64,000 nt of DNA from Alloactinosynnema sp. L-07 (GTDB lineage Bacteria; Actinomycetota; Actinomycetes; Mycobacteriales; Pseudonocardiaceae): assembly GCF_900070365.1 (NCBI RefSeq), contig NZ_LN850107.1:6572001-6636000 (forward strand), given 5' to 3'. The position numbers were made by a program, and so were the translations under genes. The notes below the pieces were generated by a model. That model had not been told where the DNA came from and did not search any database. It saw nothing but the letters and a program-made list of their open reading frames with translations. Of the stretch, positions 14,095-55,464 are shown in pieces. How positions within the stretch are numbered: position 1 is the first letter of the stretch; each line of letters starts with the position of its first letter.

Positions 14095-14700
14095 CTACCG
14101 GCCGCCAGAATTCCGCAACCGTGCCTCGATGCCCCGGTGGGCCCGCGCGTAGGCGTCATCGTCGCCGGTCAGCACGGCCACCGCGTTGGCGGCCCGGCAC
14201 AGCGCGTCGATCTCGAAGGCCAGTTGGTCGATGTCGGTGTCGGAAGCGAGGTGGCCCCGCTCGACCGCGGCCGCCGCGAACTGGGCGAGCAGCTCCATCC
14301 AGCTGCCGAAGGAGCGCTCGACCGCGTCGTGCACGCGGCCCTGGCGGGCGTCGAACTCGGCGGCCGCGCCCGCGAAGAAGCACCCGCCGGGGAACACCCG
14401 GTTCCGGGAGTGGGCCAGCCAGTTGTCGACCAGCTTGGTGAGCCGGGGCAGGCCAGGGTCGGCGGCCAGCGCGGACTCGACGACGGTCTCGACGAAGATG
14501 TCCCTGGCGAAGGCGATCGCGGCCAGCTGCAGCTCCTCCTTGGAGCCGAAGTGGGCGAAGATCCCGCTCTTGCTCAACTCCAGCTCGGCGGCCAGCCTGC
14601 CGATGGTCAGCCCTTCCAGACCCTCGACCGACGCGATCTCCACCGCGCGGCGCAGGGTCGCTCGGCGGGTCTCGGCGCCCTTCGCCAGTCGTGCGTCCAC
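14095..14700 (-). CDS. TetR family transcriptional regulator
   Basis: This 201-aa protein has an N-terminal helix-turn-helix (GLTIGRLAAELELSKSGIFA, about 30-50) and a TetR_C_6-like ligand domain. The GTG start at 14700 has no ribosome-binding site. TAGATT (minus strand, 14712-14707) lies exactly six bases upstream, which fits a leaderless transcript. A 167-bp hairpin element begins nine bases upstream of the start. Imperfect palindromes between the element and the divergent TIGR03086 gene are candidate operators, so it probably controls itself and that gene. Confidence 0.85.
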   Translation of the reverse strand: MDARLAKGAETRRATLRRAVEIASVEGLEGLTIGRLAAELELSKSGIFAHFGSKEELQLAAIAFARDIFVETVVESALAADPGLPRLTKLVDNWLAHSRNRVFPGGCFFAGAAAEFDARQGRVHDAVERSFGSWMELLAQFAAAAVERGHLASDTDIDQLAFEIDALCRAANAVAVLTGDDDAYARAHRGIEARLRNSGGR

Positions 14701-14708
14701 CCGAACAA

Positions 14709-14877
14709 TCTAGATGATCGGTTCCTGACTATCACCAGGTCTCGACCGGCCCACGACGCCGCTGCCCGCGTTGCAGGGACAGCCACGTACACCCGGTACG
14801 CGTGCTGTCCCTGCGCCTTGGCAGCGACGCCGTGGACCAGTCGATACCAGGCGATAGTCAGGAACCGATCATCTAGA
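14709..14877. repeat. Hairpin repeat element, copy 1
   Basis: This imperfect long inverted repeat spans CTAG at 14710-14713 to CTAG at 14873-14876. The outer stem ATGATCGGTTCCTGAC pairs perfectly with GTCAGGAACCGATCAT. The inner part folds back almost throughout to an apical loop near ACCCG. A second copy lies at 54639-54804 with the same inner sequence. No coding sequence is evident. One end abuts the TetR start region and the other faces the divergent TIGR03086 gene. It could be a mobile MITE-like unit, a structured RNA or a double terminator/attenuator. Confidence 0.85.
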
Positions 14878-54638: not shown

Positions 54639-54804
54639 TCTAGATGATTGACCCTGACTATCACCAGGTCTCGACTGGCCCACGACGCCGCTGCCCGCGT
54701 TGCAGGAACAGCCACGTACACCCGGTACGCGCGCTGTCCCCGCGCCTTGGCAGCGACGCCGTGGACCAGCCGATACCAGGCGATAGTCAGGATCAATCAT
54801 CTAG
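54639..54804. repeat. Hairpin repeat element, copy 2
   Basis: Flanked by CTAG at 54640-54643 and 54801-54804. The inner sequence nearly equals copy 1 (14709-14877). The outer stem is ATGATTGACCCTGAC with GTCAGGATCAATCAT, which differ from copy 1 but still pair with one mismatch. Each arm is one base shorter than in copy 1. The right end lies nine bases before the GTG of the TetR gene, the same distance as in copy 1. Confidence 0.85.
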
Positions 54805-54813: not shown

Positions 54814-55464
54814 GTGGCGAGGCGTGTATCGAAGACTGAGGAACCCGCGGTGGCCCGCGTGCGCATGACCGGCAAGGAGCGCAGGCAGCAACTGCTCGAC
54901 ATCGCCCGCGCGCTGTTCGCCGAGAAGGGCTTCGACGGCGCGTCCATCGAGGAGATCGCCCACCGGGCGAACGTCAGCAAACCCGTGGTCTACGAGCACT
55001 TCGGCGGCAAGGAAGGCATCTACGCGGTGGTCGTGGACCGCGAGATGCACGCGCTGATGTCGGGGATGACCGAGGCACTGTCCGAGGACGCCCACCCGCG
55101 GCTGCTGCTGGAAAGGGCGGCGGGAGCCCTGCTGAACTACGTCGAGGGCTCCACCGACGGCTTCCGCATCCTGGTCCGCGACTCCCCGGTCGCCACCGCC
55201 ACGGGCACCTTCTCCAGCCTGCTGAACGACATCGCCTCCCAGGTAGAACACATCCTGGGCGTCCAGTTCGCCAAACGCGGCTACGAGTCGAAACTGGCGG
55301 CGCTGTACGCGCAGGCACTGGTGGGGATGGTGGCGTTCACGGGGCAGTGGTGGCTGGAGGTGCGCAAGCCGAAGAAGAACGAGGTGGCGGCGCACCTGGT
55401 CAATCTGGCTTGGAACGGGTTGTCCAATTTGGAGGGAAAACCCACGCTGCGCGAGCGCCCCTAA
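54814..55464 (+). CDS. TetR family regulator (Rv1019 position)
   Basis: This 216-aa protein has an HTH (SIEEIAHRANVSKPVVYEHF, about 47-66) after the lead-in RMTGKERRQQLLDIARALFA, as in mycobacterial Rv1019, which also lies between glmU and mfd. The C-domain includes DGFRILVRDSPVA. The leaderless GTG at 54814 has no ribosome site; a GTG at 54850 is an alternative. Likely to regulate itself and perhaps the upstream desaturase. Confidence 0.88.
   Translation: MARRVSKTEEPAVARVRMTGKERRQQLLDIARALFAEKGFDGASIEEIAHRANVSKPVVYEHFGGKEGIYAVVVDREMHALMSGMTEALSEDAHPRLLLERAAGALLNYVEGSTDGFRILVRDSPVATATGTFSSLLNDIASQVEHILGVQFAKRGYESKLAALYAQALVGMVAFTGQWWLEVRKPKKNEVAAHLVNLAWNGLSNLEGKPTLRERP

Follow-up and report, generated by a model that had tools for sequence, protein, structure and literature searches.

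The two long hairpins in the DNA that we analysed, a window of 64,000 nucleotides from the genome of Alloactinosynnema sp. L-07, are members of a mobile family of miniature inverted-repeat transposable elements (MITEs) of about 165 bp, which are dispersed over the genome and sit at CTAG sites. The family goes beyond the two copies described in the first-pass annotation in that it comprises many copies, places other outer stems on the same core, and shows strand-asymmetric pairing. It is likely to represent a MITE lineage with a conserved single-stranded module, in which the folded core would aid spread or persistence through a host factor.

Both hairpins lie where the first-pass annotation had put them, and each extends from one CTAG to another (Table 1). 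The predicted RNA fold of positions 14709-14877 is more stable on the minus strand (-148.7 kcal/mol) than on the plus strand (-123.5 kcal/mol), and 0 of 200 shuffled sequences folded as well on either strand. The compensatory differences that had been described between the outer stems of the two copies are real, as is the paired shortening of both arms of copy 2 by one base (alignment A1, rows L001 and L007). Copy 2 additionally contains one G.U pair in this stem. The two adjoining TetR genes are genuine (Pfam TetR_N), and the last base of the CTAG is located nine bases before the GTG start of each (14700 on the minus strand, 54814 on the plus strand). Beside the TetR gene of copy 1, the CTAG forms part of a TAGATT box, which we read by eye as -10-like and which is also present in most empty-site orthologues of copy 1. 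The two copies are oriented oppositely relative to their TetR genes.

Table 1. Features of the two hairpin copies and adjoining genes (window positions)
Feature	Positions	Strand	Remarks
Mobile hairpin copy 1, CTAG to CTAG	14710..14876	-	167 bp; strand given is the one with the G.U-tolerant fold
Copy 1 outer stem, left arm	14710..14733		ATGATCGGTTCCTGAC variant of the own-genome subfamily
Copy 1 outer stem, right arm	14853..14876		
Copy 1 conserved core	14734..14852	-	Positions 1-118 of models R1/R2
Copy 1 CAAGGCG	14814..14820	-	Conserved internal loop, 5' side
Copy 1 CAACGC	14768..14773	-	Conserved internal loop, 3' side
Copy 1 apical hairpin GTACYGG..GTAC	14787..14799	-	
TetR-family gene adjoining copy 1	14095..14700	-	GTG start at 14700; Pfam TetR_N
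Mobile hairpin copy 2, CTAG to CTAG	54640..54804	-	165 bp
Copy 2 conserved core	54663..54781	-	Covariance model of core
TetR-family gene adjoining copy 2	54814..55464	+	GTG start at 54814; Pfam TetR_N

A BLAST search of the own genome (7.4 Mb, one contig) with copy 1 returned seven full-length copies and several partial matches. The covariance model of the core identified 73 distinct places in this genome, two of them in the window, with E 4e-6 for the weakest; other-strand duplicates were left out of this count, for which 150 of 16,317 first-look candidates were scored. The elements are thus short, dispersed and present in many copies, and they also have the inverted repeat ends, target duplication and empty sites of MITEs. 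The orthologous place of copy 1 could be aligned in 14 of the 15 other genomes of the genus (L127 gave a good alignment for the left flank only), and the element was absent in 14 of 14. The empty site read CTAG in 12 of these, including nine cases of TCTAGA. For copy 2, all 15 genomes could be aligned and none carried the element; the empty site was CTAG in 12, ambiguous in L150, and CTAC in the two best-matching relatives (L137, L138). The family as such was found in 7 of the 16 genomes of the genus by BLAST and in 14 of 16 by the core model R1.

From the genus we collected 103 elements, of which 10 without clear ends and one with an N were removed. One place among the remaining 92 was doubled (L048 = L077), so that counts refer to 91 elements, 89 of them with flanks of at least 600 bp for the classification of sites. 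CTAG was present at both ends in 66 of the 91 elements and at one end in a further 23. We also note an element, L032, with the ends CTAA...TTAG, which suggests that only TA, and not CTAG, is the duplicated target. IS630 is said to have been connected with the TA in CTAG by Tenzen and Ohtsubo in 1991. Of the three options that the first-pass annotation had raised, the last one, a MITE that targets CTAG within -10 boxes, agrees best with the data, in view of the empty sites, the 73 places and the insertion sequences described below, whose ends match relatives of the two copies.

The core is characterized by motifs in the order GCAAGGCG...GTACYGG..GTAC...CAACGC. Its conservation was assessed in A1, which contains 74 of 80 distinct full-length sequences from the genus (L103_1 and L107 were left out as degraded, and L069, L083, L088 and L116 were dropped for length of alignment), and in A4, with 39 sequences. 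Exact matches were found for CAAGGCG in 50 of 74 (A1) and 34 of 39 (A4) elements, for CAACGC in 51 and 33, and for GTACYGG-n-GTAC in 72 and 33, respectively. In both alignments, the unpaired motifs rank among the best-conserved parts of the element. In both A1 and A4 the apical loop varies in length by one base, which argues against a conserved reading frame. No Rfam 15 family matched inside the element (8 sources with E up to 1, 9 sources with E up to 5); the Rfam matches listed all fall outside it.

The core was not specific for the genus. Model R1, built from 32 genus sequences, detected it in 107 of 297 genomes of the bacterial family (25 of 46 genera), and model R2, built from 39 sequences, in 49 of 394 genomes of the class (15 of 137 genera). 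At the level of the phylum, R2 matched 11 of 396 genomes, seven in the class and four outside it, the latter weakly. Among 28 class loci inspected by eye, 22 had an exact CAAGGCG. The exact motif pattern occurred in at least 120 stretches, and the 80 matches listed included Streptomyces, Pseudonocardia, Actinophytocola, Prauserella, Amycolatopsis, other actinobacteria and one Euzebyales MAG. Relatives of a Streptomyces-type copy were present on 43 of 72,556 plasmid records, all from Streptomyces; viral contigs contained 0 exact motif matches.

The core stem covaries, mainly on one strand, with compensatory changes at 34 of 46 pairs in A4; in A1, such changes were found at 36 of 64 consensus pairs. 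In A4, which was fitted to a structure and is therefore biased towards pairing, 97.1% of cells pair (77.7% in shuffles), and covariation was 0.536 compared with 0.173 +/- 0.009 for shuffled and at most 0.084 for slid versions. A palindrome under neutral change is expected to accumulate equal numbers of G.T and A.C mismatches. When the arms of the 91 elements were aligned to each other with no structure assumed, we counted 863 G.T and 153 A.C mismatches. G.T exceeded A.C in 88 of the elements, the other three being degraded copies from the congener G009, and for 90 of 91 elements the core strand was the one with the lower folding energy.

The same asymmetry was observed in 22 elements from other genera together with one of the genus (G.T 176 versus A.C 12; outer stems alone 74:5) and in 28 elements from other families (190 versus 15; outer stems alone 39:10), although in these elements the strand was assigned with the core model, which may itself lean somewhat towards G.U. 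These counts cover 23 of 30 family loci and 28 of 29 non-own class loci (L251 was too short), each locus being the best match in its genome and not a random sample. Recent changes in 33 disjoint close pairs pointed the same way: the inner stem showed 42 changes to G.T and 7 to A.C (p 4e-7), the outer stem 26 and 11, respectively (p 0.02). Taken together, strand bias, covariation and conserved loops point to a folded single strand as the target of selection. The earlier suggestion of selection on pairing is supported for the element family as such, rather than for the TetR sites.

The ends of the elements vary: even among own-genome copies, one and the same core is found with several unrelated outer stems. 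A partner with the same ends was found for the L013-type MITE subfamily and for an IS5-ended relative, and none in the own genome for the subfamily of the window copies. The L013-type partner is an IS630 element in G009 (locus L173) that encodes a 370-aa transposase (NF033545, 164 bits with a cut-off of 100 bits). Its ends agree with those of the subfamily at 25 of 30 and 29 of 30 bases, and the best of 20,000 random windows reached 18 of 30 for the right end. In Actinophytocola (L381), an IS5-type element (NF033580) abuts a 168-bp hairpin with the same core motifs, and the two have common ends (21/24 and 21/24); this is the single locus on which the claim of two transposase types rests. In L381:780-1922, the IS5-type element and the MITE lie end to end, and one CTAG is common to both. 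A search of the own genome with the end pattern of the window copies (at most 3 mismatches) detected no insertion sequence; its 14 sites are the paired ends of seven already known hairpins. DDE_3 genes were present in 8 of the 16 genomes of the genus, and were not found in the copy-rich G003 and G005. The matching ends make the IS630 transposase a candidate for moving the L013-type elements.

Further observations concern the variety of ends. The own genome contains two IS630-type elements (L162, L167) with TAGTGTCGCGTGATYCTG ends, an end type not seen among the own-genome hairpins that were read. In one own-genome subfamily (L409, L410, L413, L416), the outermost bases vary between copies and match across the arms, for example as AGAGC/GCTCT and AGCGC/GCGCT. 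Short hairpins of about 46-120 bp have the same ends and lack much or all of the core (L178, L180-L184, L186-L191, L195, L016). A 76-bp short form recurs, with its junction inside a GGCGGGTC direct repeat, and the shared junctions could reflect repeated deletions at short direct repeats. As derivatives with most of the core deleted exist, the core may be dispensable for transposition.

CTAG is strongly under-represented in the window (35 occurrences, about 185 expected from base composition). The 89 classified insertion sites in the genus comprised 33 at a TAG stop codon, 16 that precede a start by 5-12 bp, a further 8 within 60 bp of a start, 12 inside coding sequences and 20 in other intergenic positions. 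The corresponding numbers for a comparison set of 102 further CTAGs from these flanks were 15, 5, 13, 42 and 27. Relative to this set, insertion sites fell more frequently at stops and 5-12 bp ahead of starts, and more rarely inside coding sequences. Gene calls for these classes, and for orientation, came from a custom ORF and GC3 caller and not from annotation. Insertions thus appear to occupy CTAGs at which they are tolerated, among them those in the -10 boxes of genes that are probably leaderless. The orientation of the elements relative to neighbouring genes was unbiased (91 elements: ++ 24, -- 22, +- 26, -+ 13, rest undefined), which argues against an effect through read-through mRNA.

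These data also bear on the proposed connection with TetR genes. Two of the original proposals were that the hairpins control the adjoining TetR genes as a structured regulatory RNA or attenuator, and that they form a cruciform to which TetR proteins bind. The first is favoured by the location of both copies nine bases before a GTG start, the second by the presence of palindromic DNA beside TetR genes. Neither was supported on closer inspection. The attenuator is very improbable, because the copies are oriented oppositely relative to their TetR genes, other copies adjoin unrelated genes, and the orthologous places are empty. The cruciform is still harder to believe, since this core also adjoins unrelated genes and is carried by outer stems that differ greatly from one another. 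The expectation that other copies would also lie upstream of TetR starts did not hold either: 20 neighbour genes at 11 other own-genome copies included one more TetR gene, 266 bp away (L003), alongside genes for a polyprenyl synthetase, a Rieske protein and a ROK protein. The TetR association looks like coincidence, and would follow from CTAG lying in -10 boxes.

The complementarity of the arms might be maintained by mutation instead of selection, with template switching at the hairpin turning one arm into a copy of its partner, and common descent being the sole reason why the cores are alike. This would suit the paired one-base shortening in copy 2, the matched end variants between copies, and a modest excess of two-sided outer-stem changes in the 33 close pairs, where 6 were counted and independent change would predict about 1.1. 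However, single-sided changes dominate (48 versus 6 in the outer and 48 versus 3 in the inner stem) and are skewed to G.T, and strand-neutral arm copying would erase G.U pairs that are kept across genera, such as the UG in 31 of 39 sequences at A4 columns 20-113. We therefore consider this explanation unlikely. More serious, though still the less favoured possibility, is that the active single strand is DNA, extruded as a one-strand hairpin in replication or transposition. Folding with DNA parameters likewise favours the same strand (-81.8 versus -67.4 kcal/mol), and the unbiased orientation to genes agrees with this idea; G.T tolerance fits both RNA and single-stranded DNA and does not separate them. 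Against it, the end-matching transposases are of the IS630 and IS5 types, which are DDE enzymes acting on double-stranded ends. We thus favour the MITE lineage with a conserved folded module, in which a transposase supplied in trans would move the elements and the core would act as a folded single strand, RNA being somewhat more likely than single-stranded DNA. Its unpaired motifs (the GCAAGGCG/CAACGC internal loop and the GTACYGG..GTAC tip) would be recognized by a putative factor common to the hosts, and would in this way help the element to spread or persist. More tentatively, with about as much doubt as belief, the core may be a selfish structured RNA (or single-stranded DNA) module of Actinomycetes that keeps its fold and loops constant across many genera, swaps its ends between unrelated transposase families, and acts via a class-wide host factor; the constant part of the lineage would then be the core and not the transposase.

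A literature search, which mostly covered papers outside subscription, returned no description of this element family. MITEs of the IS630 type and hairpin repeats are already known, among them RUP of pneumococcus, described as a 107-bp repeat with a TA target and ends like those of an IS630 element (PMC2229807, PMC3049150). RUP and the present family are alike as short dispersed hairpins with IS630-like ends, which the present family has in one subfamily (PMC2229807, PMC3049150); as far as these descriptions go, the present family differs in its conserved centre, its variable ends, and an IS5-ended relative with the same core. The nearest published system that we found is MRSC-65-2, described as a long covarying stem from diverse phyla, marked by a UYCCGG repeat and present in dozens of copies, sometimes near a transposase, with the choice between RNA and DNA left open (PMC11109978). 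The single long covarying stem, the dozens of copies and the occasional transposase nearby are common to both (PMC11109978). By that description the two appear to differ, as most of our elements lack the repeat: UYCCGG occurs in 18 of 74 (A1) and 9 of 39 (A4) sequences, and two or more times in 1 of 74 and 0 of 39. The present family could also be among the 250 mobile or repeat candidates of the same study (PMC11109978). ERIC/NEMIS elements are long imperfect hairpin MITEs with reported effects on mRNA (PMC2229807), and the present family resembles them in being a long imperfect hairpin MITE. Kinship with ERIC found no support: R2, run with filters off on two E. coli ERIC loci, gave 8.0 bits (E 0.93) and covered the apical stem only, and an unrelated place scored 8.8 bits. 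We also note that ERIC (L198, L199) carries AAGGCG on the 5' arm and AACGCAG on the 3' arm, resembling the internal loop of the core, a likeness that we regard as a lead only.

MITEs are usually defined by their ends, and their middles usually drift. The present family shows the opposite pattern, with changing ends around a conserved middle that covaries on one strand. What looked like a TetR regulatory motif is explained as a side effect of the presence of CTAG within -10 boxes, and the conserved core suggests that small transposons may carry a functional nucleic-acid structure of their own. With dozens of copies per genome in many genera, the family provides countable material for studying why hairpins of this kind are retained.
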